34,501 bases of DNA from Caldimonas manganoxidans ATCC BAA-369 (GTDB lineage: Bacteria > Pseudomonadota > Gammaproteobacteria > Burkholderiales > Burkholderiaceae_C), in assembly GCF_000381125.1 (NCBI RefSeq), contig NZ_KB905958.1, positions 1 through 34,501 of the forward strand, in the 5' to 3' direction. The notes under the pieces are model-generated. The model did no database searches, was not told the origin of the DNA, and saw only the letters and a program-made list of their open reading frames with translations. Made by a program: the position numbers and the translations under genes. Positions 1,478-31,839 of this stretch are shown in pieces; the stretch's first letter is position 1, and each line of letters opens with the position of its first letter.

Positions 1478-2443
1478 TCAGCTCGATCCGACCTCGTTCA
1501 TCGGCCGCCCGGCGGCAAAGGCCTCCAGGACCTCGGTCAGCTGATCGGCCAAGCGCTGTTGCGCTTGCAGCGAGGCCCAGGCCACGTGCGGTGTCAGCAA
1601 GACCTCGGGCCGCTGGGCCAGGCGCAGCAGCGGGTGATCGGGCGGCGGCGGCTCGACACGGGCCACATCCAGCGCCGCCCCGCCGATGAGCCCCTGGTCC
1701 AAGGCGCGCGCCAGGGCCGCCTCGTCGATCAACGCGCCGCGGGCGGTGTTGATGATGAGCGGGCGGCGCCGCATCGCATGAAACTCGGCCTCGCCCAGCA
1801 AGCCGCGGGTTTCGGGCGTCAAGGGGCAATGCAGGCTGAGCACATCGCAACGCTGCAGCACCTCGTTCCAAGGGGTGTAAGGCGGCTCGACCCGAGCGAC
1901 CCCTTTGCGGCCGGCCCACAGCACCTGCATGCCAAAGGCTTGCGCCAGTTCCCCGACTCGCCGCCCCAGTTCGCCCCGGCCCACGATGCCCAGTGTGGCG
2001 CCGGCCAGGTCGGCGATCGGGTGGTCGTGGAAGCAAAACTGCCCACTGTCCCACCAGCGTCCGGCCAGCACCGACTCGCGGTAGGCCAGCAAGCGGCGGC
2101 GCAAGGCCAGCATCAGCGCCAGGGTGTGTTCCGGCACGGTATGCACCGCATAGCCTCGGATGTTGCACACCTTCACGCCATGACGCGCACAGGCAGCCAG
2201 GTCCACACAGTCGGTGCCGGTAGCGGCCACGGCCACCAAGCGCAGCTGCGGCAGTTGCGCCAGCGCGTCTTCCGTGATGGGCACCTTGTTGGTGATGGCC
2301 ATGGTGGCGCCTTGCAGCCGCTGCACCACCTGGTCGGCGCTGGTGCGCTCGTGCTCGATCCACACATGCTCGAACCCCGGCCGGCGCAAGCGCACTTGCG
2401 CCGCCAGGGTGGCCCGATCCAAAAACACGATGTGATGCATCAT
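1478..2443 (-). CDS. D-2-hydroxyacid dehydrogenase (hydroxypyruvate/glyoxylate reductase-like)
   Basis: This 321-residue protein is of the D-isomer-specific 2-hydroxyacid dehydrogenase family (SerA/HprA/GhrB type), which interconverts 2-keto acids and D-2-hydroxy acids with NAD(P)H in the cytosol. Visible features are the nucleotide fold GIVGRGELG (about 152-160) and the catalytic triad Arg235 (INTARGALID), Glu264 (DVARVEPP) and His286 (LTPHVAW). Its start overlaps the stop of the upstream transketolase in an ATGA, so the two are translationally coupled and it is the last tightly linked gene of the operon. Hydroxypyruvate or glyoxylate is a natural guess because transketolases can use hydroxypyruvate as a C2 donor, but this is inference. 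Confidence 0.88.
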   Translation of the reverse strand: MMHHIVFLDRATLAAQVRLRRPGFEHVWIEHERTSADQVVQRLQGATMAITNKVPITEDALAQLPQLRLVAVAATGTDCVDLAACARHGVKVCNIRGYAVHTVPEHTLALMLALRRRLLAYRESVLAGRWWDSGQFCFHDHPIADLAGATLGIVGRGELGRRVGELAQAFGMQVLWAGRKGVARVEPPYTPWNEVLQRCDVLSLHCPLTPETRGLLGEAEFHAMRRRPLIINTARGALIDEAALARALDQGLIGGAALDVARVEPPPPDHPLLRLAQRPEVLLTPHVAWASLQAQQRLADQLTEVLEAFAAGRPMNEVGSS

Positions 2444-4449
2444 CTCCCCTGCGTGCTGGCCTGCTGCAACGCGTCCAGCGCTTCTTGCACGATGCGCTGT
2501 GGCGTGATGCCGAAGTGTTCGTACAGCCGAGGTCCCGGCCCGCTGGCGCCGAAGCCGCGCATGCCCACGAAGCGCCCGCGCTCGCCCAACCAGCGGCACC
2601 AGCCGAAGTCCACCGCCGCCTCGCAGCCCACCCGCACGGTGCCAGGCCCCAGCACGGCGCGTTGGTAGGCCTCGTCCTGTTGTTCGAACAACTCCCAGCA
2701 CGGCATGGACACCACCGCCGTGCCGATGCCCTGGGCCTGCAAGTGCTGGCGGGCCTGCACCGCCAGCGCCACTTCCGAGCCCGTGGCCAGCAAGGTCACT
2801 TGCCGCGGGCCTTCGGCCTCCAGCAGCACATAGGCCCCGCGGGCGCTGCGGTTGTCCATCCCATCGTCCGCCGAGCGCACATGCGGCAGGCTCTGGCGGG
2901 CAAAGATCCAGCTGACCGGGCCATCGCGGCGCTGCAACGCCGCTTCCCAGCATTCGGCGGCTTCCACGGCATCGGCCGGCCGCATCACCCACATGCCAGG
3001 CAGGGCCCGCAGGCTGGCCAGCATTTCCACCGGCTGGTGGGTGGGGCCATTGCGCCCGATGCCGATCGAGTCGTGACTGAAGACGAAATGCACCGGCAGC
3101 CCCATCAGCGCCGCCATGCGCAAAGCCGGACGCTCGTAATCGCTGAAGGCCAGATAGGTCAGCGCCAGCGGCACGATGCCACCATGCGCAGCCATGCCCA
3201 CGGCCAAGGCGCCCATCGCATGCTCGCGCACTCCGCAATGCAAATAGGTGCCCGCGCGATGCTCGGCAGTGAAGGCCGCCTGGTCCCGCTTGTGCCCCAT
3301 CGGTGCTTCCAGGTCGGCGCAAGCGATCAAGCGCTCCGGCATCAACGGAGTCAGCCGCTGGTGCAGATCGGCGCAGATGAAGATGCCGCTGGACTGGGGC
3401 GCGGTCTGCACCGCCTCGCGGCGGTAGCGTCGCAGCACATCGCGCCAGCCCTCGCGCAGGCCGCCTTGCAGCACGCGCTCGAACTCGGCGCGCTCGCGCG
3501 CAGGCAAGGCTTGCACACGGTCTTGCCATGCCCGACGTGCCTGGCGGCCGCGCTGTCCGGCCTCGCGCCAAGCGCTCAGCACGTCCTCGGGCACGACGAA
3601 GGGCGGATGCGGCCAATCGAGGTCACGCCGCGCTTGCTCGGCATCCTGCTCGAACAGCTTGGCACTGTGGCCGCCGCGCTGGCCTTGCAGCCGCGCCAAG
3701 CCGCGCGCAATGATGGTTTTGCACGCGATCAAGGACGGCCGCGGGTCCTCATACACCGCGGCCATGGCCGCATCGAGCGCCTCCAGGTCGTGGCCGTCCA
3801 CCTCCTGCACATGCCAGCCGGCCACGCGAAAACGCTCGGCCACGTTCTCGCTGATCGACAACGCAGTGCTGCCATCATCGGTGATGGCGTTGTCGTCCCA
3901 CAGCAAGGTGAGCTTGCCCAGCCGCCAGTGCCCGGCCAGTTGGATCATTTCCTGCCCCACCCCTTCTTGCAAGCAGCCGTCGCCGACGAAGGCCCACGTG
4001 CGGTGGTTCACCAGCGCATCGCCAAAGCGCGCGTTCAAATAGGCTTCGGCCACGGCCATGCCCAAGGCGTTGGCAATGCCTTGTCCCAACGGGCCGGTGG
4101 TCACCTCGATGCCATGGGCCACGTTGCGCTCGGGGTGGCCTTCGCAGTGCGAACCCAATTCGCGGAAGGTTTTCAGCTGCTCGATGTCGAAGGCCGCATA
4201 GCCCGTCAGATGCAGCAAGGCATACAGCAGCATCGAGCCATGGCCGTTGGACAGCACCACGCGGTCTCGGTCGGGCCACTCGGGCGCCTGCGCATCGAAT
4301 TTCAAGCTCCGGGTGTACAGCGCGGTGGCGATCTCGGCCATGCCCAAGGGCACGCCCTGATGGCCTTCACCAGCGCGCACGATGGCATCGATGGCCAGCA
4401 TGCGGATCGCATGCGCCATGCGTTGCCGCAGCGTCGGATCGATCCTCAC
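2440..4449 (-). CDS. transketolase, full-length, possibly altered substrate range
   Basis: This 669-residue thiamine-diphosphate enzyme transfers a C2 ketol unit between sugars. The TPP/Mg motif is GDGCLQEG running to WDDN, followed by the pyrimidine-binding domain (GVREHAMG with the catalytic Glu; SHDSIGIGRNGPTHQPVE) and a C-terminal domain. The GTG at 4449 is preferred because GAGGGGG lies just upstream and it falls 11 bp after the previous stop. An in-frame TTG at 4473 would overlap that gene. Compared from memory with E. coli TktA, the S-R-K-A-S phosphate-contact segment reads P-Q-S-S-G here, the HGAPLG loop reads HSAKLF, and the Arg near TktA 358 appears to be Val. The HDSIG His and the RQ Arg remain. 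A second transketolase is encoded directly upstream. Confidence 0.92.
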   Translation of the reverse strand: MRIDPTLRQRMAHAIRMLAIDAIVRAGEGHQGVPLGMAEIATALYTRSLKFDAQAPEWPDRDRVVLSNGHGSMLLYALLHLTGYAAFDIEQLKTFRELGSHCEGHPERNVAHGIEVTTGPLGQGIANALGMAVAEAYLNARFGDALVNHRTWAFVGDGCLQEGVGQEMIQLAGHWRLGKLTLLWDDNAITDDGSTALSISENVAERFRVAGWHVQEVDGHDLEALDAAMAAVYEDPRPSLIACKTIIARGLARLQGQRGGHSAKLFEQDAEQARRDLDWPHPPFVVPEDVLSAWREAGQRGRQARRAWQDRVQALPARERAEFERVLQGGLREGWRDVLRRYRREAVQTAPQSSGIFICADLHQRLTPLMPERLIACADLEAPMGHKRDQAAFTAEHRAGTYLHCGVREHAMGALAVGMAAHGGIVPLALTYLAFSDYERPALRMAALMGLPVHFVFSHDSIGIGRNGPTHQPVEMLASLRALPGMWVMRPADAVEAAECWEAALQRRDGPVSWIFARQSLPHVRSADDGMDNRSARGAYVLLEAEGPRQVTLLATGSEVALAVQARQHLQAQGIGTAVVSMPCWELFEQQDEAYQRAVLGPGTVRVGCEAAVDFGWCRWLGERGRFVGMRGFGASGPGPRLYEHFGITPQRIVQEALDALQQASTQGR

Positions 4450-4460
4450 GGCCCGCCCCC

Positions 4461-5465
4461 TCAGCCCAGCCAACGACGGATGCGCCCGCCCAGCGCCTCG
4501 CGGCTGATGCCGTAGCGCTGGTGCAGCGTGGGCAAGGCACCGGCATCCAGGAACGCATCGGGCAGACCGGCCAGCTCGAAACGCGCCGGCTGCACCCGAT
4601 GGCGCAGCAGCACGCTGGCCACTGCCTCGCCCAGGCCGCCGACGATGCTGTGGTTCTCGGCCACGACCACCAAGCGGTGCTTGTAGCGCACCTGCTCGAC
4701 GATGGCGGCCTCATCCAGGGGTTTGAGGGTCGGACAGTGCAAAACGGCCACGCCGATGCGGTCGGCAGCCAAGTCTTGCGCCACTTCCAGCGCCCGCATG
4801 GTCATCAAGCCGCTGCTGATGATCAGCACATCCTGCCCATCGCGCAGCAACTTGGCGCGGCCCAGCTCGAAGCGATAGCCCTCGATCTCGTCGAGCACCA
4901 GCGGCACATTGCCGCGCAGCAGTCGCATGTACACCGGCCCCGGATGCGCGGCGATTTGCGGCACGGCTTGCTCGATGTCCAGCGCGTCACACGGATCGAC
5001 GATCGTCAGCCCCGGCACGGCGCGCATCATGGCCAGATCCTCGGTGGCCTGGTGGCTCGGGCCGTAGCCGGTGGTCAGCCCTGGCAGCGCACAGCAGATT
5101 TTGACGTTGAGGTTTTCCTCGGCGATCACTTGATGGATGAAGTCGTAAGCCCGCCGGGTGGCGAACACCGCATAGGTGGTGGCAAAGGGCAGCAAGCCCT
5201 CTTTGGCCATGCCGCCGGCGGCGGCCAGCAGCAATTGCTCGGCCATGCCCATCTGGAAATAGCGCTCGGGATGGGCCTGCGCCAAGAGATGCAAATCGGT
5301 GTACTTGGCCAGATCGGCCGTCAGGCCCACGACCTCTGGGCGTTGAAGGGCCAGCTCCACCAAGGCCTTGCCGAACGGGGCGGCGCGCACGCGCTGCCCT
5401 TCGGCCGCAATCGAGGCGATCATCGCCGAGGTTTTCAATCGAGGACGCTCGGTGGCGGTGTTCAT
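4461..5465 (-). CDS. split transketolase, C-terminal (pyrimidine-binding) subunit
   Basis: This 334-residue protein corresponds to the second half of a transketolase or DXS-like enzyme: the Pyr domain followed by the transketolase C-terminal domain (from about residue 200). The catalytic Glu that activates thiamine lies in QMGMAEQLL. TGYGPSHQATEDLAMMRAV is the equivalent of the THDSIG segment. It must pair with the N-terminal subunit encoded just upstream, whose stop overlaps this ATG (ATGA at 5465-5462). Split transketolases of this kind occur in sugar-degradation operons, for example the apulose-4-phosphate (AptAB) and sulfoquinovose (SqwGH) enzymes. The substrate here is unknown. Confidence 0.9.
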   Translation of the reverse strand: MNTATERPRLKTSAMIASIAAEGQRVRAAPFGKALVELALQRPEVVGLTADLAKYTDLHLLAQAHPERYFQMGMAEQLLLAAAGGMAKEGLLPFATTYAVFATRRAYDFIHQVIAEENLNVKICCALPGLTTGYGPSHQATEDLAMMRAVPGLTIVDPCDALDIEQAVPQIAAHPGPVYMRLLRGNVPLVLDEIEGYRFELGRAKLLRDGQDVLIISSGLMTMRALEVAQDLAADRIGVAVLHCPTLKPLDEAAIVEQVRYKHRLVVVAENHSIVGGLGEAVASVLLRHRVQPARFELAGLPDAFLDAGALPTLHQRYGISREALGGRIRRWLG

Positions 5466-6316
5466 GCGCGCGCTCCTTCGGGGGCGGTCTGATCGAGGAT
5501 GTCCAAAGCTTGCTGCCATTCGGGCGGATCGACCCGGATGAAATGGTTCTTGTCGCGCTGCTCCAGGAACGGCACCCCCTTGCCCATGAGGGTGTCGCAC
5601 AGGATCACGCGCGGCTGGGGCTGCGGCCAATGGCGCGCGGTGTCGAAGGCCTGCAGCACCTGGGCCAAGTCGTTGCCATCGATGCGCTGCACATGCCAGC
5701 CAAACGCACGCCACTTGTCCACCAAAGGCTCGAAATTGAGCACCTGCGTGGAAGGCCCGTCGGCCTGCTGATTGTTGAGATCGACCAAGCAGATCAAGTG
5801 ATCGAGCCGCCAGTGGCTGGCGCTCATCGCCGCCTCCCACACCGCGCCTTCGTCGAGCTCGCCGTCGCTCATCGACACATAGACACAGGCCGGGTTGCCG
5901 CGGTGCCGTAAGGCCAGCGCCATGCCCACGCCGATGGCCAAGCCCTGCCCGAGCGAGCCACCGGAGATCTCCATGCCAGGGGTGTAGGTCGCCATGCCCG
6001 ACATCGGCAGGCGGCTGTCGTCGCTGCCGTAGGTCTCCAGCTCGCTTTCGGGCAAGATGCCCGCCTCGATCAGCGCGGCATAGTGCGCAATCGCATAGTG
6101 CCCATGCGAGAGCAAGAAGCGGTCGCGCCCCTCCCAATGCGGGTCATCGGGACGCAACCGCAACGCATGTCGGTACGCCACGGCCAACACATCGGCCCAG
6201 CCCAGCGCCTGGCCCACATAGCCTTGGCCTTGCACTTCACCCATGCGCAGCGCATAGCGACGGATGCGCCAAGCCGCGGCAGCCAATTCGCGCAAACGCG
6301 CGTCCTCAACGGTCAT
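5462..6316 (-). CDS. split transketolase, N-terminal (TPP-binding) subunit
   Basis: This 284-residue protein contains the transketolase N-terminal domain: the FLLSHGHYAIAHYAAL segment near residue 68, the GGSLGQGLAIGVGMAL loop, and the TPP/Mg motif SDGELDEGAVWEAAM with DLNNQQADG. The first Gly of the usual GDG is Ser here. Length matches stand-alone transketolase N-subunits (about 270-290). The gene is followed immediately by the C-terminal subunit with a 4-bp overlap and preceded by the TRAP permease gene with a 24-bp gap. Together the pair should form an alpha2-beta2 enzyme with active sites at the subunit interfaces, as in the family. Confidence 0.9.
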   Translation of the reverse strand: MTVEDARLRELAAAAWRIRRYALRMGEVQGQGYVGQALGWADVLAVAYRHALRLRPDDPHWEGRDRFLLSHGHYAIAHYAALIEAGILPESELETYGSDDSRLPMSGMATYTPGMEISGGSLGQGLAIGVGMALALRHRGNPACVYVSMSDGELDEGAVWEAAMSASHWRLDHLICLVDLNNQQADGPSTQVLNFEPLVDKWRAFGWHVQRIDGNDLAQVLQAFDTARHWPQPQPRVILCDTLMGKGVPFLEQRDKNHFIRVDPPEWQQALDILDQTAPEGARA

Positions 6317-6340
6317 GCTTGGATCTCCACGAACGATGAA

Positions 6341-7600
6341 TCACTTCAAGATGCTGGCCGGCACATACGAGACGAGAACCAGCACCACGAAAGCCACGAG
6401 GTAGAACGGCGCCAGCTCGCGCACGGTCTGTGCAATGCCCGCGCGCGCCATGGCGCTGGTGATGAACAGCGTGGTGCCCATCGGCGGCGTGTACAAACCG
6501 ATGGCCAAATTGACCACCATCATCACGCCCAGTTGGATGGGGTCCATGCCGATGCTTTGCGCCAGCGGCAGAAACACCGGAGTCAGCAGCAACACCGCCG
6601 CTGGCAAATCGATGAACATGCCCAGAAATAGCATCAACACGTTCATCAGCGCCACCACGGCCCACGCCGCCGTGACGTGGCTTTGCACCCATTGGGCAAA
6701 GTGCTGCGGCATCTGGTCGAAGGTCAACAACCATCCAATGGCTGCCGAGGCCATGATCACGAACAGCACCACGCCACTGGTGACACCGGCTTCGATGACG
6801 GCCTCCAGCAAACGCCGCCAGCTCAGATCGCGGTAGATCACGGACGACACCACCGCGGCGTACAGCGTGGACAGCACCGCCACCTCGGTCGGCGTGGCAA
6901 AGCCAAAGCGCAACAGCACCACGATCAACACCGGCAACAGCAGGGCCGGGATCGAGTACACCAAGTCGCGCCGCACTTGTCCCAAGGAGGCTGCCGCTTC
7001 ACCGCGGGGCAGCCCGCGGCGCTTGCCTGCCCACCAGCACACGGCCAAGAACCCGCCGGCCAACAGCAGCCCCGGCAACACGCCAGCCAGAAACAGCGTG
7101 GCGATCGAGGCATTGGCCGTCACGGCATACAGGATGAGCGGGATCGAAGGCGGGATGAGGATGCTGATGGTGGCCGACGAGGCCAACGCGGCCGCGGAAA
7201 ACGCCGGCGGATAGCCCAGCCGACGCTGCCACGGCAGCAGCAAAGCGCCAATGGCCGTGGCATCGGCCACCGCCGAACCAGAAACCCCCCCGAACACCGT
7301 GGACGACAGCACGCTGACTTGCGCCGGCCCGCCGTGCCAACGCCCCACCAAGGCCGACAACAAGCCCACCAAGGCCTGCCCCAGCTTGCCCCCCATCATC
7401 AGCGAGCCGGTGAGCATGAAAAAGGGAATCGCGATGAGCGGAAAGCTCTGCACCTGGGCCACCATTTGCTGCACCAGCAGGTCCAGTGGTATGCGCTCAT
7501 TGCTGGCCGCCGCTGCCAAGGCTGCGGCCAGCAGCGCATGACCGATCGGCATGGCCAGCGCCAGCGCAGCCAAAAACACGCACAGGATCAGCAGACTCAT
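6341..7600 (-). CDS. TRAP transporter large permease (DctM family)
   Basis: This 419-residue, very hydrophobic inner-membrane protein has about 11-12 transmembrane segments and the DctM hallmarks GSAVADATAIG and SATISILIPPSIPLILYAV. DctM subunits carry the substrate path and couple uptake to the sodium gradient. The ATG at 7600 overlaps the stop of the small permease gene (ATGA), so an upstream in-frame extension is not used. It acts with the binding protein and DctQ subunit encoded just before it. The position between an SDR dehydrogenase and the transketolases implies that it imports the compound those enzymes degrade. Confidence 0.93.
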   Translation of the reverse strand: MSLLILCVFLAALALAMPIGHALLAAALAAAASNERIPLDLLVQQMVAQVQSFPLIAIPFFMLTGSLMMGGKLGQALVGLLSALVGRWHGGPAQVSVLSSTVFGGVSGSAVADATAIGALLLPWQRRLGYPPAFSAAALASSATISILIPPSIPLILYAVTANASIATLFLAGVLPGLLLAGGFLAVCWWAGKRRGLPRGEAAASLGQVRRDLVYSIPALLLPVLIVVLLRFGFATPTEVAVLSTLYAAVVSSVIYRDLSWRRLLEAVIEAGVTSGVVLFVIMASAAIGWLLTFDQMPQHFAQWVQSHVTAAWAVVALMNVLMLFLGMFIDLPAAVLLLTPVFLPLAQSIGMDPIQLGVMMVVNLAIGLYTPPMGTTLFITSAMARAGIAQTVRELAPFYLVAFVVLVLVSYVPASILK

Positions 7601-8121
7601 CGCGCGGCTCCAGCAGCATCGTCTGAAGCGGCTGCAGCGCGCCCGCCCCAGGCTTGCCAGGCCGATTGCACCGCCAGAAGCGCCATCAGCCACAAGCCGC
7701 CCATCACGCAGGCGTAGGTGACCGACCCTGGCACGCGCAGGATGGGTGAGCGTTCGTCATGCACGATGGGCAGCAACTGCCATGTGGCCACCCCGAGCGT
7801 GACATGCAGCCCGGCCACCGCCAGCCACACGCCAGAGCGCAGTGCTCGCAAGCCCCGCGCCGGTAGCACCTGGGTGAGAAAGTCGGTGGCGATGTGCGCG
7901 CCTCGGCGTGCAGCCAACACGATGCCGGCCATCACCAGCCAAGGGAACAGCAACTCCGGCACTTCATTGCCCCATGCCAAGCTGCTGCCGGTCAGATAGC
8001 GCAACACGGTGTTGGCGCACAGGATCACGAAGATCACGGCGGTGGCAGCAGCCAACACCGTCACACCCACCCCATCGACCAGACGGTCGAGCCACGTGCG
8101 GCCCTGGACATCCGCGTTCAT
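7597..8121 (-). CDS. TRAP transporter small permease (DctQ family)
   Basis: This 174-residue protein has four predicted membrane helices (about 18-40, 52-72, 92-112 and 134-156), with the DctQ-typical FPWLVMAGIVLAARRGAHIATDF segment between helices 2 and 3. DctQ subunits brace the large permease and are needed for TRAP uptake. The start ATG has a GGAG about nine bases upstream. The gene ends in a 4-bp overlap with the large-permease gene and lies 21 bp after the binding-protein gene, so all three are one transcriptional unit. Confidence 0.9.
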   Translation of the reverse strand: MNADVQGRTWLDRLVDGVGVTVLAAATAVIFVILCANTVLRYLTGSSLAWGNEVPELLFPWLVMAGIVLAARRGAHIATDFLTQVLPARGLRALRSGVWLAVAGLHVTLGVATWQLLPIVHDERSPILRVPGSVTYACVMGGLWLMALLAVQSAWQAWGGRAAAASDDAAGAAR

Positions 8122-8142
8122 CGCAACGGCTCCTGGAGCGGC

Positions 8143-9129
8143 TCAGTGCGCACGCGCGGCGGCCACGACCTTCTTGACGAACGGCCCGATCGGACCGTTG
8201 CTCCACTGTTCCGTCACCGCCGCGGTGGCGCGCTGGAAGGCTGCCGCATCGGCCGTGCTGACCTGCACGCCCTTGGACTTCAAGTCCTCCAGCAGCTTGG
8301 CATCGGCCTCGGCCGACAGGCGGCGCTGCAACGCGGTGGCCTCGGCGGCGGCTTGGCGCAACACCGTGCGGTCGGCTTCGGACAAGCGATCCCAACTGCG
8401 CTTGCTCATCAGGAACGGCGTCATCTCGTACTTGTGCCCGGTCAGCGCCAAGTGCTTTTGCACCTCGTAGAGCTTGCTGGCATGGATGTTCATCAAGGGG
8501 TTTTCCTGCCCATCGACCACGCCTTGCTGCAAGGCCACGTACAGCTCGCTGAACTTGATCTGCTGGGGCTCGGCGCCCAGGGATTTCATGATGTCCACCG
8601 TCACCGCATCCGGTGGGGTGCGCATCTTCAAGCCCTTGAGGTCTTCTGGCTTGGTGATCGGGCGCTTGCTGTTGGTCATGTGGCGGATGCCGTTGTCCCA
8701 ATAGCCCAGCACGATCAGGCCCTTCTCTGCGCTTTTGTCGGCCAGCTCTTGACCCAAGGGCCCGTCCAGCAGCTTCCAAGCCGCCGGCAGATCGGCAAAC
8801 AAGAACGGCATGCCAAAGGCCGCGTACTCGGGCACGACATTGGCCACCGCCCCCTGCGAGTTGGCGCTCAGATCCAAGGCGCCGCTGCGCAGCGCCGTGA
8901 CCATGGCCGCGTCATCACCCAACTGGGCCGAAGGCGCCACCTGCACCTCGATGCGCCCGCCGGATTTGGCTTTGGCCACTTCGGCGAACTTCACCGCCGC
9001 CTCGTGCCGCGGGTTTCCCGGCGCTGCGCCGTGACCCAACATCAGCTTGATGCTTTGCGCCTGCGCCCAGCCGCAGCCCAGCAGCACCGCGGCGGTGAGG
9101 GTGGCTTTCAAAAACGTTTTGCGTTGCAT
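8143..9129 (-). CDS. TRAP transporter substrate-binding protein (DctP family)
   Basis: This 328-residue periplasmic solute receptor has a Sec signal peptide of about 24 residues (basic MQRKTFLK, hydrophobic TAAVLLGCGW, cleavage near AQA). The mature part shows the DctP signature around 165-215: LKGLKMRTPPD with Arg170, the residue that clamps the ligand carboxylate in characterised members, and VDGQENPLMN with the conserved Asn/Gln-Glu stretch. Retention of this Arg suggests an acidic ligand such as a sugar acid or hydroxy acid, though polyol-binding exceptions exist. AGGAGA lies seven bases before the ATG. It follows the SDR gene by 46 bp. Confidence 0.93.
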   Translation of the reverse strand: MQRKTFLKATLTAAVLLGCGWAQAQSIKLMLGHGAAPGNPRHEAAVKFAEVAKAKSGGRIEVQVAPSAQLGDDAAMVTALRSGALDLSANSQGAVANVVPEYAAFGMPFLFADLPAAWKLLDGPLGQELADKSAEKGLIVLGYWDNGIRHMTNSKRPITKPEDLKGLKMRTPPDAVTVDIMKSLGAEPQQIKFSELYVALQQGVVDGQENPLMNIHASKLYEVQKHLALTGHKYEMTPFLMSKRSWDRLSEADRTVLRQAAAEATALQRRLSAEADAKLLEDLKSKGVQVSTADAAAFQRATAAVTEQWSNGPIGPFVKKVVAAARAH

Positions 9130-9175
9130 GGTATGTCTCCTCGGGTGAACGATGGCGCGCCTGCACGGCGCGGCG

Positions 9176-9931
9176 TCAGTGAATCAACATGCCTCCGTTG
9201 ACGTCGAGCGTCACGCCGGTCACGTACTTGGCCAAGTCGCTGGCCAAAAAGAGCACGCAGCCGGCCACATCGTTGGGCTCGCCGATGCGGTTGAGCGGGA
9301 TTTGTTCCAAGATGCCCTTCATCCGGTCGTCGGGGATGAGCCCCTTGTTGATGTCGGTGGCAATCAGCCCCGGCGTGACGCTGTTGACCCGAATGCCTTC
9401 GATCCCATACTCGCGCGCCATCGCGCGCGCCAAGCCCAGCACCCCGGCCTTGGCGGCCGAATAGTGCGGCCCGCCCAAGATGCCGCCCCCACGCTGAGCA
9501 CTGACGGAGGAGATGCAAACGATCGCACCGCCGCGCTGCGCCCGCATCGTCGGCAAGACGGCCTGCGACATGTACAAGGTGCCGCGCAGGTTCACGTCCA
9601 GCACGGCGTCATAGTCCTCGGGGCTGATGTCCAAGGTCTTGCGCGGTTGGGTGATCCCGGCGTTGTTCACCAGGATGTCGATGCGCCCGTAGCGCTCCAG
9701 TACGGCCTGCGCGGCGGCTTGGCAGGCGGCTTTGTCCGTCACATCGGCCACCACCCCCAGGTGGGCCTCCCCCAGGTGCGCGGCCGCGCGTTGCGGCTCG
9801 GCGCGCGCCAAATCGACCACCACCACACGCGCGCCGTGCTCGGCCATCGCCCGCGCGGTGGCAAAGCCCAGGCCATTGGGTCCGGCCGCACCGGTGATCA
9901 CGGCCACTTTGTCTTTCAGCAGCATGCTCAT
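9176..9931 (-). CDS. SDR-family NAD-dependent dehydrogenase/reductase
   Basis: This 251-residue classical short-chain dehydrogenase has a Rossmann motif TGAAGPNGLG (13-22), slightly expanded relative to TGxxxGxG. Asp40 at the end of beta-2 (VVVVDLARAE) favours NAD+ over NADP+. NNAG is at 89-92, the catalytic Ser is in SSVSA (about 142-144), and the catalytic pair is YSAAK (Tyr157, Lys161). The C-terminus ends in the family-typical TGVTLDVNGGMLIH. The ATG at 9931 follows GAGGAGAGC; a second Met two codons on is possible. It is the first gene of the operon, divergent from the LysR gene, and probably oxidises the imported alcohol or hydroxy acid to a ketone. Confidence 0.92.
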   Translation of the reverse strand: MSMLLKDKVAVITGAAGPNGLGFATARAMAEHGARVVVVDLARAEPQRAAAHLGEAHLGVVADVTDKAACQAAAQAVLERYGRIDILVNNAGITQPRKTLDISPEDYDAVLDVNLRGTLYMSQAVLPTMRAQRGGAIVCISSVSAQRGGGILGGPHYSAAKAGVLGLARAMAREYGIEGIRVNSVTPGLIATDINKGLIPDDRMKGILEQIPLNRIGEPNDVAGCVLFLASDLAKYVTGVTLDVNGGMLIH

Positions 9932-10057
9932 GCTCTCCTCACATGGAACGCAAGGGGCCGCAGCAACTGCGGCGCGCCTCTTGCGGCACCCAACACGGGT
10001 CACCGCCGCATGGTGGCCGCGACGGTGAATGAAGACAAGCGATGTTTTTTCACTCTA

Positions 10058-10076
10058 AGATGACGAATCGTCATCT
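10058..10076. promoter_or_regulatory. perfect 19-bp palindrome, candidate LysR operator
   Basis: AGATGACGAATCGTCATCT is a 9-bp perfect inverted repeat around one central base. It lies between the divergent SDR operon and the LysR gene, 20 bp before the chosen LysR start. LysR proteins typically bind interrupted dyads in such divergent spacers and control both directions. Binding by this particular regulator is inferred from position. Confidence 0.65.
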
Positions 10077-10095
10077 AACGTCCGGGGTAGCCCCG

Positions 10096-10995
10096 ATGCC
10101 GCACCTGCCGCCCATCCACGCCCTTCAGGCCTTCGAGGCCGTGGCCCGCCGGCGCAGCTTCGCCTTGGCGGCCATGGAGTTGCATCTGACCCCTTCGGCC
10201 GTGAGCCATCAGATCGCGCGTCTGGAGGCCCAACTGGGCGTGCGGCTGCTGGAACGCAGCGCCCACGGCGTGCGCTTGAGCGCTGCCGGCGAGTCCTATT
10301 TGTCGCGCGTGGCCGGCGCCTTGGCCGCCATTGCCTCGGCCACCGATGACGTGCAGCACGGGGTGTCCAACAGCCTGTACGTGCACAGCACGCCCAGCCT
10401 GGCCATGCTGTGGCTGATGCCGCGGCTGCCCACCTTCGCGCAGGCGCACCCGGAGGTTTCGCTCAACTTATCGGCCGCCCACACGCACAGCGATTTCGCG
10501 CTCGGGCAGGCCGATCTGGACATCCGCTACGGCGTGCCAAACTGGGGCGATCTGGTGGTGGAACCCTTGTTCGAAGAACCCATCGTCCCCATGGCCAGCC
10601 CGACGTTCATCCGGGCGCACCGCCTCAAGCGCATCGAACAATTGCTCGACGTCCCGCTCATCCAGAGCAATGTCAGCGTGGTGCAATGGAGCGATTGGTT
10701 CGCTGCACACAGCCGCTTGCGCGCGCCGCAGCGCTTTGCCTTGCGCTTCGACCGCGCTCAAATGGCCATGGAGGCGGCCATCTTGGGCCTGGGGGTGGCG
10801 CTGGAAAGCGCCGTGCTGGCTCAACCCCATTTGCGCGAAGGTCGTTTGCGCATGGTGTTCGGGCTGGATCGCTGCGTGCGAGTCAAGGCGCATTTCGTCG
10901 TCTATCCCGCCCGACATGCGCGACGCGCCCCCGTGGAGGCGTTCTTGACCTGGATCCACCGCGAAGCCGCGCGTTGCGCTCTCGCACCGGCATGA
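10096..10995 (+). CDS. LysR-family transcriptional regulator (GcvA-like)
   Basis: This 299-residue protein has an N-terminal winged helix-turn-helix: HALQAFEAVARRRSFALAAM, then LTPSAVSHQIARLEAQLGVRLLER (recognition helix around residues 30-50). A periplasmic-binding-like effector domain follows from about 90. The sequence is of the GcvA-like branch, often paired with amino-acid or organic-acid catabolic operons. The ATG at 10096 gives the canonical family N-terminus (LPPIHALQAFEA). Earlier ATGs at 10042 and 10060 would place coding sequence over the 19-bp palindrome. It is divergent from the SDR/TRAP/transketolase operon and is its likely regulator. Confidence 0.92.
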   Translation: MPHLPPIHALQAFEAVARRRSFALAAMELHLTPSAVSHQIARLEAQLGVRLLERSAHGVRLSAAGESYLSRVAGALAAIASATDDVQHGVSNSLYVHSTPSLAMLWLMPRLPTFAQAHPEVSLNLSAAHTHSDFALGQADLDIRYGVPNWGDLVVEPLFEEPIVPMASPTFIRAHRLKRIEQLLDVPLIQSNVSVVQWSDWFAAHSRLRAPQRFALRFDRAQMAMEAAILGLGVALESAVLAQPHLREGRLRMVFGLDRCVRVKAHFVVYPARHARRAPVEAFLTWIHREAARCALAPA

Positions 10996-13661: not shown

Positions 13662-15371
13662 ATGGATGCCAAGATCATCCCCCTGCACCCCGAGGGTGCT
13701 CCCAGCCGCCAACGTCGTCGGCAAGCCCCCCGCGGACGGCCCGTGAGCCCCGAAGCGCTGCGCGAGGTGCAAGCCACGCTGCAGGGCGTGCTGCCGCGGC
13801 GCGACCAGCTCATCGAGGCCCTGCATGCGCTGCAAGACCGCTTTCATCAGCTGCGCACCGACCACCTCGCCGCGCTGGCGCAATGGATGCGGCTGTCGCA
13901 GGTCGAGGTGTATGAAGTGGCCAGCTTCTACCACCACTTCGACGTGGTGCGCGAGCGGCCCGATGGCAGCTTCGAAGCGCCGCCAGCGCTGACCGTGCGG
14001 GTGTGCGACAGCCTGTCGTGCGAGCTGGCCGGCGCGCATGAGCTGTTGCAACGGCTGCCGGGTCTGCTGGGGACGCACGTGCGCGTCGTCCCCGCCCCCT
14101 GCCTGGGCCGCTGCCATGAGGCGCCGGTGGCCCTGGTGCATCAACGCCCGATCGGGCGGGCCACCGCCGCAGCCGTGCAAGCCACCATCGCCCAGGGCCT
14201 GCATCACGAGGACATGCCCGCGGCCTTGGGCTTGGACGCCTACCGCGCCCAAGGCGGCTATGCCACGCTGCAGGCCTGCGTGAGCGGCCAGCGCCCGGTG
14301 GAAGCCGTGCTGCAGGCCCTGGACGACTCGGGCCTGCGTGGCCTGGGCGGCGCGGGGTTTGCGGCCGGGCGCAAATGGCGCATCGTGCGCGCGCAGCCAG
14401 CACCGCGGCTGATGGCCGTCAACATCGACGAAGGCGAGCCCGGCACGTTCAAAGACCGGCACTATCTGGAGCGCGACCCACACCGCTTCCTCGAAGGCAT
14501 GCTGATCGCGGCCTGGGCCGTGGGGGTGGAAGCCATTTACATCTACCTGCGCGACGAATACCACGGCTGCCGCGCGATGCTGGCCCGTGAACTCGCCGCT
14601 TTGCAAGCCGCTGCCCCCGTGCCGCTGCCGCACATCGAGTTGCGCCGCGGCGCCGGCGCGTACATCTGCGGCGAAGAGTCGGCCATGATCGAATCCATCG
14701 AAGGCAAGCGGGGCCTGCCCCGGCTGCGCCCGCCGTATCTGGCCGAAGCGGGCTTGTTCGGTCGGCCCACGCTGGAGCACAACTTCGAGACGCTCTACTG
14801 GGTGCGCGACATCGTCGAGCGCGGGCCACAGTGGTTCGCCTCGCACGGCCGGCGCGGCCGCAAGGGCCTGCGCTCGTTTTCCGTGTCGGGCCGCGTGAAG
14901 CAGCCCGGCGTCAAGCTCGCCCCGGCGGGCATCACGCTGCGCGAGCTGATCGACGAGCATTGCGGCGGCATGCTCGACGGTCACCAGCTGTACGCCTACC
15001 TGCCCGGCGGGGCCTCGGGCGGCATTCTGCCGGCCCGCTTGGCCGACCTGCCGCTGGACTTCGACACCTTGCAGCCCTATGGAGCCTTCATCGGTTCGGC
15101 CGCCATCATCGTGCTGTCGCAACATGACCGCGCAGTGCAGGCCGCGCGCAACCTGATGCGCTTCTTCGAGGCCGAATCCTGTGGTCAGTGCACGCCCTGC
15201 CGCGTCGGCACGAGCAAGGCGCGTGCGCTGATCGAGCAGCCGCGCTGGGACACCGCCTTGCTGGCGGAGTTGTCGCAAGTGATGCGCGAGGCATCCATCT
15301 GCGGCTTGGGACAAGCCGCCCCCAACCCGGTGGACTGCGTGATCAAGTACTTTGCCGAGGAGCTCGCATGA
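13662..15371 (+). CDS. NAD-dependent formate dehydrogenase beta subunit, NuoE-NuoF fusion type
   Basis: This 569-residue cytosolic subunit carries electrons from the alpha subunit to NAD+. Residues about 30-170 are NuoE-like with a [2Fe-2S] cluster at Cys115, Cys120, Cys147 and Cys151. Residues about 220-500 are NuoF-like: FMN loop GLGGAGFAAGRKW and NAD loop RGAGAYICGEESAMIESIEG. A [4Fe-4S] cluster follows at Cys507, Cys510, Cys513 and Cys547 (SCGQCTPCRVG). The same fused layout is known from Methylorubrum FDH1 and the tungsten enzyme FdwAB of Cupriavidus, in contrast to separate FdsG and FdsB. The stop overlaps the alpha ATG. Confidence 0.93.
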   Translation: MDAKIIPLHPEGAPSRQRRRQAPRGRPVSPEALREVQATLQGVLPRRDQLIEALHALQDRFHQLRTDHLAALAQWMRLSQVEVYEVASFYHHFDVVRERPDGSFEAPPALTVRVCDSLSCELAGAHELLQRLPGLLGTHVRVVPAPCLGRCHEAPVALVHQRPIGRATAAAVQATIAQGLHHEDMPAALGLDAYRAQGGYATLQACVSGQRPVEAVLQALDDSGLRGLGGAGFAAGRKWRIVRAQPAPRLMAVNIDEGEPGTFKDRHYLERDPHRFLEGMLIAAWAVGVEAIYIYLRDEYHGCRAMLARELAALQAAAPVPLPHIELRRGAGAYICGEESAMIESIEGKRGLPRLRPPYLAEAGLFGRPTLEHNFETLYWVRDIVERGPQWFASHGRRGRKGLRSFSVSGRVKQPGVKLAPAGITLRELIDEHCGGMLDGHQLYAYLPGGASGGILPARLADLPLDFDTLQPYGAFIGSAAIIVLSQHDRAVQAARNLMRFFEAESCGQCTPCRVGTSKARALIEQPRWDTALLAELSQVMREASICGLGQAAPNPVDCVIKYFAEELA

Positions 15372-18145
15372 ATGCGGTGATGTCGCCCGAGGTCGTCATC
15401 GACTTCACCCTGAACGGGCAGCCGGTGCAAGCCCGTGCGGGCGAAACCCTGTGGACCGTGGCCCGGCGTCACGGCATCGAAATCCCCCACCTGTGTCATG
15501 ACCAGGGCCTGCGCCCGGCCGGCAACTGCCGCGCCTGCGTGGTCGAGATCGAAGGCGAGCGGGTGCTGGCGCCCTCGTGCTGCCGCAGCCCCACGCCCGG
15601 CATGGTGGTGCGCAGCGACAGCGCACGTGCGGTGGCGGCGCAGAAGATGGTGATCGAGCTGCTGCTGTCGGACCAGCCGGCCACCCCGCGCACCGGTCGC
15701 AACGAGCTGACCGAATGGGCCGCCAAGCTCGGGGTGGGCCAGCCGCGCTTTGCCCCGCGCACGCAACCCGCACCCGATGTCTCGCACCCGGCCATCGCGG
15801 TGCACCTGGACGCCTGCATCCATTGCACCCGCTGCCTGCGCGCCTGCCGCGAGGTGCAAGTCAACGACGTGATCGGCCTGGCCGGCCGCGGCGCGCGCAC
15901 CACCATCGTCTTCGACATGGGCGATGCGATGGGCGCCTCCACCTGCGTGGGCTGCGGTGAATGCGTGCAAGCCTGCCCCACCGGCGCCCTCAGCCCCGCG
16001 CAAGGCGCGGCCTTGCAGCAGGCCGATCGACGCGTGGAGTCGATCTGCCCCTACTGCGGCGTGGGCTGTCAGCTCACCTACCACATCAAGGACGAGCGCA
16101 TCCTGCGCGTCGAAGGCCGCCACGGCCCGGCCAACCAGGGTCGTCTGTGCGTCAAAGGGCGCTATGGCTTCGACTACGTGCATCACCCCCAGCGCCTGAC
16201 CGTGCCATTGCTGCGCCGCGAAGGCGTCCCCAAGCACACCCCGGTCGATCCCGAGCGCTGGCACGAAGTCTTCCGCGCAGCCAGCTGGGACGAGGCCCTG
16301 GCGCGCGCCAGCGAGGGCTTGCGCCGCATCCGCGACACGCTGGGGCCGCGCGCGCTGGCCGGCTTCGGCTCGGCCAAGGGCAGCAACGAGGAGGCCTACC
16401 TCTTTCAGAAGCTGGTGCGCACCGGCTTTCGCAGCCACAACGTCGATCATTGCACGCGTCTGTGTCATGCCTCGTCGGTGGCCGCGCTGCTCGAAGGCAT
16501 TGGCTCCGGCGCGGTGTCCAACCCGGTGCGCGATGTCGCACAGGCCGAGTTCGTGCTCCTGATCGGCGCCAATCCCACGGTCAATCACCCGGTGGCCGCC
16601 ACCTGGATCAAGAACGCGGTGCGGCAAGGCACCAAGCTCGTCGTGGCCGACCCGAGGCGCACCGAACTCGCCCGCCACGCCTGGCGCATGCTGCAGTTCC
16701 GCCCCGACACCGACGTGGCGCTGCTCAACGCGATGATGCACACGATCATCGCCGAAGACCTGATCGACTCCGCCTTCATCGAGGCGCGCACGACCGGTTT
16801 CGACGCCCTCAAGGCCCATCTCGCAGCCTACCGCCCCGAGGCCATGGCCCCGCTGTGCGGCATCGACGCCGACACGATCCGTGAAGTGGCGCGCGCCTAT
16901 GCCACCGCGCGCGCCTCGATGATCCTGTGGGGCATGGGCATCAGCCAGCATGTCCATGGCACCGACAATGCCCGCTGCCTGATCGCGCTGGCGCTGATGA
17001 CCGGCCAGATCGGCCGGCCCGGCACCGGGCTGCATCCCTTGCGCGGACAAAACAATGTGCAAGGCGCGTCGGACGCCGGCTTGATCCCGATGATGTTCCC
17101 GGACTACCAGCGCGTCACCGATGCGGCCGCGCGCGCCAAGTTCGAACGGCTCTGGGGCGTGCCGCTGGACGACCAGCCCGGCCTCACCGTGGTGGAAGTG
17201 ATGGACGCCGCCTTGCGCGGCGAGGTGCGCGGCATGTACATCGTGGGCGAGAACCCGGCGATGAGCGACCCCGATGCCGAGCATGCGCGCCAAGCCTTGG
17301 CCGCGCTGGACCACCTGGTGGTGCAAGACATCTTCCTCACCGAAACCGCCGCGCTGGCCGACGTGGTGCTGCCGGCCTCGGCCTTCCCGGAGAAAACCGG
17401 CAGCTTCACCAACACCGACCGGCTCGTGCAGCTTGGCCGTCAAGCCCTGCAGCCGCCGGGTCAGGCGCGCCAGGACTGGGAGATCATCCAGTCCATCGCC
17501 CAAGGCCTGGGGCTGCCTTGGCACTACACCGACATTGGCCAGGTCTATGAAGAAATGCGTCAGTGCATGCCCAGCCTGGCCGGCCTGAGCTGGGCCCGCC
17601 TGCAACGCGAAGGCGCCGTCGTGCACCCCTGCCCGGATGAGGACGCGCCGGGGCAGGCCGTGGTGTTCACCGACCACTTCCCCACGCCCGACGGCCGCGG
17701 CCGCTTCGTGCCAGTCGATCTCGTGTCGGCCGACGAACGCCCCGATGCCGACCATCCCTTCGTGCTCATCACCGGCCGCCAGCTCGAACACTGGCACACC
17801 GGCAGCATGACCCGGCGCAGCCGGGTGCTCGATGCCCTGGAGCCAGACCCGGTGGGCCTGATGCACCCGCAAGACTTGCAACGCCTGGGCGTGGCCCCCG
17901 GGGGCCTGGTCACGCTGCGCTCGCGCCGTGGTGAAGTGGCTCTGTACGCCCGCGCCGACGAAGGCACCCCCGTGGGCACCGTCTTCGTGCCCTTCTGTTA
18001 TGCCGAAGCCGCCATCAACAAACTCACCAACCCCGCGCTGGATCCCTACGGCAAGATCCCCGAGTTCAAGTACTGCGCCGTCAGCGTGCGCGCCGGCGGC
18101 TCGGTGCCCGGCCCCCATCCGACCCGCGGCCCCACGAAGATGTGA
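15368..18145 (+). CDS. formate dehydrogenase alpha subunit (Mo/W-bis-MGD, Cys-type)
   Basis: This 925-residue catalytic subunit oxidises formate to CO2. In order it has: a plant-type [2Fe-2S] domain (Cys43, Cys54, Cys57, Cys71); a His/Cys-liganded segment; two ferredoxin [4Fe-4S] motifs (CIHCTRCLRAC and CVGCGECVQAC); the molybdopterin [4Fe-4S] motif CPYCGVGC; and the bis-MGD domains. The metal ligand is Cys366 in TRLCHAS, followed by the proton-handling His367. A selenocysteine occupies this site in E. coli FdhF. RQLEHWHTGSMTRRS and the C-terminal dinucleotide-binding domain are intact. No FdsD-like chaperone or FdhD sulfurtransferase is encoded in the window. Whether the metal is Mo or W cannot be read from the sequence. 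Confidence 0.94.
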   Translation: MNAVMSPEVVIDFTLNGQPVQARAGETLWTVARRHGIEIPHLCHDQGLRPAGNCRACVVEIEGERVLAPSCCRSPTPGMVVRSDSARAVAAQKMVIELLLSDQPATPRTGRNELTEWAAKLGVGQPRFAPRTQPAPDVSHPAIAVHLDACIHCTRCLRACREVQVNDVIGLAGRGARTTIVFDMGDAMGASTCVGCGECVQACPTGALSPAQGAALQQADRRVESICPYCGVGCQLTYHIKDERILRVEGRHGPANQGRLCVKGRYGFDYVHHPQRLTVPLLRREGVPKHTPVDPERWHEVFRAASWDEALARASEGLRRIRDTLGPRALAGFGSAKGSNEEAYLFQKLVRTGFRSHNVDHCTRLCHASSVAALLEGIGSGAVSNPVRDVAQAEFVLLIGANPTVNHPVAATWIKNAVRQGTKLVVADPRRTELARHAWRMLQFRPDTDVALLNAMMHTIIAEDLIDSAFIEARTTGFDALKAHLAAYRPEAMAPLCGIDADTIREVARAYATARASMILWGMGISQHVHGTDNARCLIALALMTGQIGRPGTGLHPLRGQNNVQGASDAGLIPMMFPDYQRVTDAAARAKFERLWGVPLDDQPGLTVVEVMDAALRGEVRGMYIVGENPAMSDPDAEHARQALAALDHLVVQDIFLTETAALADVVLPASAFPEKTGSFTNTDRLVQLGRQALQPPGQARQDWEIIQSIAQGLGLPWHYTDIGQVYEEMRQCMPSLAGLSWARLQREGAVVHPCPDEDAPGQAVVFTDHFPTPDGRGRFVPVDLVSADERPDADHPFVLITGRQLEHWHTGSMTRRSRVLDALEPDPVGLMHPQDLQRLGVAPGGLVTLRSRRGEVALYARADEGTPVGTVFVPFCYAEAAINKLTNPALDPYGKIPEFKYCAVSVRAGGSVPGPHPTRGPTKM

Positions 18146-18311
18146 CCAGATGTAAGGCGAGCCCTCCTCGGGCGTCCCGTTTGCTTCGTCCAAGCCACGC
18201 CAGTGCCACGGCGTGCAGCCGCGCGGCAGAACCGCCACACCGTGACGTTTTCTGACACAGCGCGTCACACCGCGGGTGACACTTTGGCGCCCGACACCGG
18301 AGAGCTTGCCC

Positions 18312-20063: not shown

Positions 20064-20071
20064 GGCCGCCC

Positions 20072-31832: not shown

Positions 31833-31839
31833 GCACACG

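Follow-up and report, generated by a model that had tools for sequence, protein, structure and literature searches.

A modular catabolic-type operon with a split transketolase of altered active site in Caldimonas manganoxidans

Which compound is handled by a group of eight minus-strand genes in Caldimonas manganoxidans ATCC BAA-369, and by what chemistry? The window, i.e. the whole stretch of DNA analysed, is one complete contig (NZ_KB905958.1; G000:C30 in our numbering; 34,501 bases) of the 3.53 Mb genome. Positions 1478-9931 had been proposed in a preliminary description to hold a catabolic operon of an NAD-type short-chain dehydrogenase (SDR), a tripartite ATP-independent periplasmic (TRAP) transporter (DctP, DctQ and DctM), the two chains of a split transketolase (TKN and TKC), a second transketolase (TKT, full-length) together with a D-2-hydroxyacid dehydrogenase (HDH), divergent from a LysR-family gene. 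Pfam and NCBIfam assignments bore out all eight genes and the regulator, and the catabolic type of the operon was supported. The system is real and modular, with relatives across Proteobacteria, and its enzymes, although from a superfamily already known, have changed active sites. We give about an even chance to the reading that it degrades a non-phosphorylated sugar acid, likeliest an aldonic acid of at least five carbons that may also arrive as a lactone, by SDR oxidation and subsequent removal of a two-carbon (C2) unit by the split transketolase. No description of the operon was found in the open-access literature searched.

TKN was used as the query against 84,980 species genomes. Its relatives are common: at least 591 were found in the genome collection (591 of 595 candidate stretches), and 251 plasmid records carry TKN relatives, 63 of them at less than 60% identity. 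Synteny counts given below refer to the best 80 of the at least 591 relatives (loci numbered with the prefix L), in which TKN is 67-84% identical to the window chain. A simple codon model served for gene calling in the loci, and the genes were then clustered; TKC, SDR, LysR, TKT, HDH and the HIBDH-type dehydrogenase were counted from matches to fixed reference proteins within 10.5 kb. TKC was present in 80/80 loci (66-88% identical to the window chain), an SDR orthologue (59-84% identity) in 67 and a LysR at least 35% identical to that of the window in 64. TRAP transporters were recognised in 51 loci, major facilitator superfamily (MFS) transporters in 20 and ATP-binding cassette (ABC) transporters in four; none was recognised in eight. 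The gene order recurs in many Burkholderiales and, taken with the identities of TKN and TKC, this shows that the arrangement is not due to chance.

The eight genes do not form one conserved unit. TKT was found in 18 of the 80 loci (the L050 copy being partial, at the locus edge) and HDH in 12, each of which also has TKT. The full set of SDR, DctP, DctM, TKN, TKC, TKT and HDH occurs in 12/80 loci, three of which (L066, L095 and L106) have a more distant, fused-type TRAP transporter. In L040, L042, L047, L057 and L098, TKT or the TKT-HDH pair lies across LysR, on its other side. Regulator, dehydrogenase, transporter and split transketolase make up the constant core; with only 18 and 12 occurrences, TKT-HDH is a separate, optional module, detachable from the core. 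Annotation of a Skermanella locus (L187) gives, in a row, SDR, TKN, TKC, TRAP, an NAD(P)-dependent oxidoreductase, a D-2-hydroxyacid dehydrogenase and tkt. A short version on a Klebsiella aerogenes plasmid (L158) has no SDR; its genes are LysR, TKN, TKC, an NAD(P)-dependent oxidoreductase (a match to the HIBDH cluster) and an MFS transporter. Annotated genes under the plasmid matches bore transketolase names only (60 of 251 plasmid rows examined). None of the three other genomes of the host genus in the sample gave a match at the E-value limit used. The L158 plasmid is conjugative; a further Klebsiella locus (L190) has another short version, with an SDR annotated as glucose 1-dehydrogenase, between cecR and rhlE-dinG-ybiB.

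The split enzyme retains the cofactor site of the transketolase superfamily and has lost part of its substrate site. Residues are numbered according to E. coli TktA. Thiamine diphosphate (ThDP) motif residues D151, E156 and N181 of TKN (D155-G, E160 and N185) were found in 80/80 called operon chains (the L079 chain was not called), and the catalytic Glu411, E76 of TKC, in 81/81. The substrate histidines H26 and H100 are replaced by Tyr and Ser, respectively, in all 80 called TKN chains; H66 is kept, and so is H261 (79/80, one X). TKC keeps H473 and R520 and has Tyr for F434. Ala126 replaces H461 and Tyr134 replaces D469 (81/81 in the alignment; 79/81 by strict motif for the Tyr loop), the loop ahead of the conserved GPSHQ being one residue shorter with Tyr at the D469 place. 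R358 is changed to Ala, Ser or Pro in at least 77/81 chains. Both H26 and H100 are present in the controls, namely TktA, the host enzyme encoded on contig C24, AptA, TKT, the split transketolase of Carboxydothermus hydrogenoformans (6yak) and human transketolase. The Carboxydothermus enzyme (6yak/6yaj) has the same two-chain architecture as TKN/TKC but keeps the equivalents of H26, H100, H461 and D469, all four of which are replaced in the operon enzyme.

Twelve other split transketolases of the same bacterial family were also compared; H26 is kept in seven and replaced by Tyr in five (L114-L118), position 100 being Ser or Asn. A maximum-likelihood tree was built from 37 rows, 21 of them operon C-chains, and placed the operon enzymes in a supported clade (99/96). 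This clade adjoins L114-L116 and stands apart from AptB and the Carboxydothermus enzyme, although long branches, that of AptB most of all, make deep placement unsure. Read by eye, the surroundings of L114 and L115 comprise branched-chain ABC, Fe-ADH-like, acyl-CoA ligase and acyl-CoA dehydrogenase-like genes, and those of L117 and L118 an HIBDH-type gene, a nitrate/sulfonate-type ABC transporter and a histidinol-dehydrogenase-like gene.

The two Tyr replacements lead to a prediction. In E. coli transketolase, D469 hydrogen-bonds H26; with propanal as substrate, D469Y shifted the product from 58% S to 68% R, reaching 85% R in combination with R520V, and H26Y inverted the stereoselectivity to 88% R (PMC3657141). 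With Tyr at both positions, the operon enzyme is predicted to act on, or make, alpha-hydroxyketones of the opposite C3 configuration, i.e. to work on 3R-type ketones, opposite to classical transketolase donors. On H26Y and D469Y in transketolase, the open-access literature searched yielded only the above E. coli study; our impression is that the natural enzymes had gone unnoticed. The prediction is clear and could be tested by one assay; a natural enzyme of this kind would offer biocatalysis a ready-made route to (3R)-ketols, such as engineers obtained by mutation.

The transporter bears on the class of substrate. The DctP structure model (pLDDT 92) had 4pdh as its best Foldseek match (TM 0.88, 40% identity), and the solved relatives found (4pdh, 7bbr, a sugar-acid receptor, 4pdd, 4pak/4p9k, 4nq8 and 4p47) are 33-40% identical. 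We take 4pdh and 4pdd to hold erythronate. In related receptors including 4P47 and 7BBR, the carboxylate is clamped by Arg152, Arg173 and Asn213 (4P47 numbering), the site is closed by an aromatic residue at 196, and position 76 is acidic and in most cases bound to a hydroxyl (PMC11668362). The same paper describes closed structures holding pantoate or erythronate, often co-purified, save for three sugar-acid complexes and one orotate complex. By alignment, the window equivalents are R149, R170 and N210 (clamp), F193 (aromatic) and D73 (acidic). The clamp, of which the Arg had been pointed out before, was invariant in 30/30 aligned receptors, these being 30 of the 51 clustered DctPs. With DctQ and DctM also present, the DctPQM set is complete, and these residues lead us to expect a hydroxylated carboxylate as ligand.

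The SDR is of NAD type, as first described, judged from the Asp at the end of beta-2 and the motif YSAAK, both read from the sequence; the nearest PDB chain was 7krk (337 bits). Whereas genes, families, synteny and residues are shown directly, all the chemical steps that follow are inferred, and so are the C2 acceptor and the substrate. The TRAP transporter would take up the sugar acid, as the receptor supports. The SDR would then oxidise the carbinol adjoining the terminal CH2OH to give a hydroxymethyl ketone, which the split transketolase, having an intact ThDP site, would cleave, handing on a C2 unit. The remainder would be a shorter aldehydo- or keto-acid: tartronate semialdehyde/hydroxypyruvate from a C5 acid, or a C4 semialdehyde from a C6 acid. 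TKT and HDH may process this remainder jointly, as their strict pairing suggests; HDH would form D-glycerate from hydroxypyruvate, or glycolate from glyoxylate, by reduction for entry into central metabolism. In relatives without TKT-HDH, an HIBDH-type enzyme, a glycerate kinase or a TIM-barrel/dihydroxyacetone (DHA)-kinase pair might serve as downstream enzymes. A transketolase can act on sugar acids (PMC8317047).

Companion genes in relatives bear on the substrate. Among them are lactonase-type genes from two families that are unrelated to each other. SGL proteins (SMP-30/gluconolactonase type) neighbour the split transketolase in L046, where the gene immediately precedes the SDR, in L089 and, by clustering, in L091. 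Amidohydro_2 proteins do so in L059 (directly before TKN) and L099, and by clustering in L101 (approximately 7 kb off); the sole NCBIfam match of the L059 protein was L-fuconolactonase, which was weak (111 bits, cut-off 400). An annotated amidohydrolase follows a sugar ABC transporter in plasmid loci of Aminobacter, where it immediately precedes the SDR, and of Rhizobium; these loci have TRAP genes too. A PQQ dehydrogenase of the glucose/quinate/shikimate group lies near two of the 80 loci (L078 by NCBIfam, L076 by clustering). An HIBDH-type dehydrogenase occurs in 20/80 loci at 40% identity or above (23 by clustering), 16 with the SDR and four without (L079, L081, L084 and L085); it co-occurs with TKT in two loci at the same 40% limit. 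The best NCBIfam model for this companion was L-threonate dehydrogenase (286-327 bits in 3/3 proteins tested, cut-off 350). The proposal that it is merely a tartronate semialdehyde reductase is weakened by this match and by its replacing the SDR in short operons.

The preliminary description set the operon apart from known split-transketolase pathways by its lack of a kinase or isomerase. Kinases and an isomerase-type protein are nevertheless present in some relatives, if not as the set of any pathway known to us. A MOFRL glycerate-kinase-type gene occurs in 4/80 loci by clustering (L042, L047, L056 and L067; the L056 protein was checked, and follows HDH). The isomerase-type protein, a TIM barrel (PF01261), occurs in 6/80 and a DHA-kinase-family gene in 5/80 (rhizobia, Paracoccus), in both cases alphaproteobacterial throughout; one TIM-barrel protein was tested and had no NCBIfam match at 1e-10. 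Lactonases, and glycerate kinase or a threonate-dehydrogenase-like enzyme, in some relatives indicate an aldonic acid as substrate. Overall, the companions point to a sugar acid able to arrive as a lactone and to a C3/C4 acid or ketone as product, without settling the number of carbons. Glycerate kinase together with HDH favours a C5 acid, with tartronate semialdehyde or hydroxypyruvate as product; a C6 acid would fit better with two successive transketolases. Given the general model, a C5 aldonate is the favoured candidate, if short of an even chance; a C6 acid is a possible second choice, a branched or deoxy acid somewhat doubtful and a C4 acid the least probable of the four.

Several observations weigh against the degradation of a sugar acid by SDR oxidation and C2 removal. 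The split transketolase was the query, so its constancy among the 80 loci is by construction, and the type of transporter varies among them. The SDR orthologue is absent from 13/80 loci, seven of which (L076, L078, L079, L081, L084, L085 and L087) extend more than 9 kb on both sides, the other six being short on at least one side. In the L158 operon, and in L079, L081 and L084 (Pantoea/Pseudomonas), an L-threonate-dehydrogenase-like enzyme replaces it; the SDR is thus not always the first enzyme. The sister split transketolases with Tyr26 occupy quite different gene surroundings, and the Tyr26 subfamily seems to serve several substrates. AptB, which we take to handle a phosphorylated donor ketose, lacks the equivalents of R358, H461, D469 and R520. 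The losses of R358, H461 and D469 from TKC therefore do not prove an unphosphorylated substrate, and that argument was dropped. To our knowledge, no substrate, product or phenotype is known for any member. Lastly, with H100 lost, the unit transferred could be something other than hydroxyacetyl.

This last point leads to an alternative that we regard as quite unlikely, namely that the split enzyme is a ThDP lyase for another acyloin, e.g. a 1-deoxy ketone, and moves acetyl rather than hydroxyacetyl. The yeast counterpart of H100, His103, is reportedly needed for substrate recognition and, as we understand it, contacts the C1 hydroxyl of the donor; a Ser at this position in every called operon chain is consistent with a different unit, although Ser could still bind a hydroxyl. 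TKC scores 180 bits against the DXS model, though 224 bits against the transketolase model (NCBIfam), and TKN clearly belongs to the transketolase N family. The weak L-fuconolactonase match in L059 would suit a 6-deoxy sugar acid; no acetyl-handling gene was recognised in the operon.

One of the closest known systems is that for D-apiose in E. coli SE15, which, like the window operon, combines a catabolic split transketolase (AptA/AptB) with SDRs and a sugar transporter. We regard as decidedly unlikely that the operon is a variant of this apulose route, or another route for a branched-chain sugar acid, in which the transketolase releases a ketone (DHA or hydroxypyruvate). The E. coli set is similar, AptA/AptB being split there too and accompanied by a sugar ABC transporter and a pair of SDRs (PMC13001218). 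Released DHA would fit the DHA-kinase-family gene of some relatives, and released hydroxypyruvate would suit HDH and glycerate kinase. DRL-family oxidoreductases lie near 4/80 loci by clustering, plus L099 (L035 and L099 by Pfam, PF21135; L038, L050 and L075 by clustering); the single protein tested had no NCBIfam match at 1e-10. TKN and TKC are, however, just 34% and 27% identical to AptA and AptB, respectively, AptB falls outside the operon clade, and AptA keeps H26 and H100 whereas TKN does not. Identity between the window SDR and either E. coli SDR is only 33-37%, and the receptor is of carboxylate type. The E. coli cluster has an FGGY kinase, AplK (PMC13001218), whereas none was found in the window operon or in two sets of 10 neighbouring proteins from relatives that were put to Pfam, the remaining neighbours not being scanned. 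Membership of the AptAB-type apulose-4-phosphate pathway was rejected on identity, separate clade and absence of the kinase. The distinctness of the split transketolase from AptAB, and the lack of any kinase, isomerase or aldolase in the window operon, both agree with the preliminary description.

The same description listed tetronates among the ligands to be screened. A C4 route, in which D-erythronate or L-threonate would be oxidised by the SDR at C3 to 3-oxo-tetronate, the split transketolase would yield glyoxylate and a C2 unit, and HDH would form glycolate, is in our view very unlikely. Related solved receptors hold erythronate or pantoate (PMC11668362, as above), the HIBDH-type companion scores best against L-threonate dehydrogenase, if under its cut-off, and malate synthase G, which the host has, could use the glyoxylate. 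However, contig C17 of the host (L182:3389-9826) carries a contiguous canonical tetronate operon (DenD, OtnI, OtnC, OtnK and LtnD) next to TRAP genes. Scores and cut-offs, in bits, were 372/325 for D-erythronate dehydrogenase, 414/325 for 2-oxo-tetronate isomerase, 653/350 for 3-oxo-tetronate kinase, 448/350 for L-threonate dehydrogenase and 236/250, just under, for the decarboxylase OtnC. Its TRAP receptor is 86% identical to 4pdd (Bpro_0088), against 43-44% for window DctP and 4pdd, 4pdh and 4p9k (4pdd 43%). Tetronates are thus already served elsewhere in the host genome, and a different acid is the likeliest substrate of the window operon, a C4 substrate being unlikely.

The DenD/LtnD-OtnI-OtnK-OtnC pathways share TRAP uptake and sugar-acid oxidation with the window operon; they use a kinase and a phospho-decarboxylase, and the gene calls around the C17 operon showed no transketolase. 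A canonical tetronate pathway in the window operon was rejected, the DUF1537 kinase OtnK and the decarboxylase OtnC being absent there and present on C17. No host glyoxylate carboligase was found over the cut-off (best 350 of 711 bits), which also counts against the C4 route, nor was a tartronate semialdehyde reductase (best 283 of 341). The search for a separate hydroxypyruvate isomerase in the host gave the tetronate isomerase as its single match. A host MOFRL glycerate kinase is encoded on C13. A GntR-like regulator was seen by eye at the C17 operon.

The full-length transketolase of the window is altered at other positions. R358I, S385P, D469N, F434Y and H258R were invariant in 18/18 operon copies (window plus 17 loci). 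A control alignment of 36 further rows included 25 housekeeping-type transketolases (47-51% identical to TKT), all of which keep R358, S385 and D469. R358 and S385, with H461 and R520, are presumably phosphate-anchoring positions. D469, an acceptor residue, forms a network with R520 and H461 in E. coli transketolase (PMC3657141). TKT thus differs from the classical pentose-phosphate enzyme at R358, S385 and D469 and keeps H461 and R520. As the three positions do not vary in 25 full-length controls, the evidence for an unphosphorylated substrate is stronger here than for TKC. Copies with I358, P385 and N469 were found in five more genomes with a split-transketolase operon (L128/L161, L129/L162, L167, L168 and L170). 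Two others (L130/L163 and L131/L164; 58-59% identity) have I358, A385 and N469, but F434; no split transketolase was seen in the fetched 19 kb of these genomes. In L164:2006-10207 (same genus in L163), the I358/A385/N469 transketolase lies directly downstream of NqrABCDEF, with two DctP-like receptors and a gene pair of molybdopterin aldehyde-dehydrogenase type alongside.

That TKT is a plain second pentose-phosphate transketolase channelling C2 units into that pathway would agree with its 44% identity to E. coli TktA over the C-terminal part and its retention of H26, H66, H100, H261, H461, H473, E411 and R520, but is most unlikely given the three replacements set against the 25 controls and the normal copy on contig C24 of the host. 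That copy was found by the TKN search of the host genome, which also gave a weak match on C3; it has the classical active-site residues, which make TKT an extra copy, and adjoins a GAPDH-like gene (L181, by eye). Judged from residues, both transketolases have lost classical substrate-binding positions, and ordinary ketol transfer cannot simply be assumed. The working model of SDR oxidation followed by C2 transfer through the split transketolase remains the best available with this qualification. HDH is probably of the glyoxylate/hydroxypyruvate reductase type by family assignment; it scored 360 bits against NCBIfam PRK06487, below the cut-off of 448.

Another of the closest known systems is the sulfo-transketolase (sulfo-TK) pathway. 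In it, SqwGH removes two C2 units from a sulfo-sugar and may pass them to glyceraldehyde 3-phosphate, and in Clostridia the final sulfoacetaldehyde is reduced (PMC9594981). The two systems would be alike in the removal of C2 units from an acidic sugar by transketolase, on the window side by analogy. They differ in that sulfo-TK has a sulfonate substrate and a proposed isomerase, SqwI, whereas the window operon combines two different transketolases with an SDR of NAD type and a receptor of carboxylate type; this comparison is of gene content. No SqwI (PF02502) was present among the Pfam families assigned to the window operon. Purely by analogy, the operon looks like a carboxylate version of sulfo-TK with two separate transketolases and a hydroxyacid dehydrogenase. 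In its most specific form, which we consider unlikely, the system would be the carboxylate counterpart of sulfo-TK, in which an unphosphorylated sugar acid is dismantled C2-wise by a stereo-inverted split enzyme and a TKT no longer tied to phosphate, and the glyoxylate or hydroxypyruvate left at the end is reduced by HDH. If the general model of sugar-acid degradation holds, two transketolase subfamilies would have moved away from sugar phosphates, and a common soil, plant and freshwater capability would as yet be without a name.

Coordinates of the operon and its regulator are given in Table 1. Four-base overlaps join DctQ/DctM, TKN/TKC and TKT/HDH (the last with the HDH ATG at 2443). Gaps are 46 bases between SDR and DctP, 21 between DctP and DctQ, 24 between DctM and TKN and 11 between TKC and TKT (GTG start used).

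Table 1. Features of the operon and the divergent regulator in the window.
Feature	Position	Strand	Assignment and remarks
SDR, NAD-type short-chain dehydrogenase	9176..9931	-	Pfam adh_short_C2
DctP, TRAP receptor, predicted hydroxy-carboxylate ligand	8143..9129	-	Pfam DctP
DctQ, TRAP small permease	7597..8121	-	Pfam DctQ
DctM, TRAP large permease	6341..7600	-	Pfam DctM, NCBIfam TIGR00786
TKN, split transketolase N-terminal (ThDP diphosphate-binding) chain	5462..6316	-	Pfam Transketolase_N
TKC, split transketolase C-terminal (pyrimidine-binding + C-terminal) chain	4461..5465	-	Pfam Transket_pyr + Transketolase_C
TKT, full-length transketolase, divergent subfamily	2440..4449	-	Pfam; GTG start, TTG 4473 possible too
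HDH, D-2-hydroxyacid dehydrogenase, probably glyoxylate/hydroxypyruvate reductase type	1478..2440 or 2443 (ATG)	-	Pfam 2-Hacid_dh
LysR-family regulator, GcvA-like	10042..10995	+	Pfam HTH_1 + LysR_substrate; later ATG 10096 possible

GC content was 65-71% throughout the window and gave no sign of a genomic island. A cupin gene (736-1224) lies just downstream of the operon, and the left contig end (1-554) carries an IS3-type transposase remnant, seen by eye in the list of open reading frames. Formate-dehydrogenase-like genes and a vanillate O-demethylase-like pair were read from the open reading frames at 13662-21508 and 30786-32811, which are possibly a formaldehyde/formate-handling neighbourhood.

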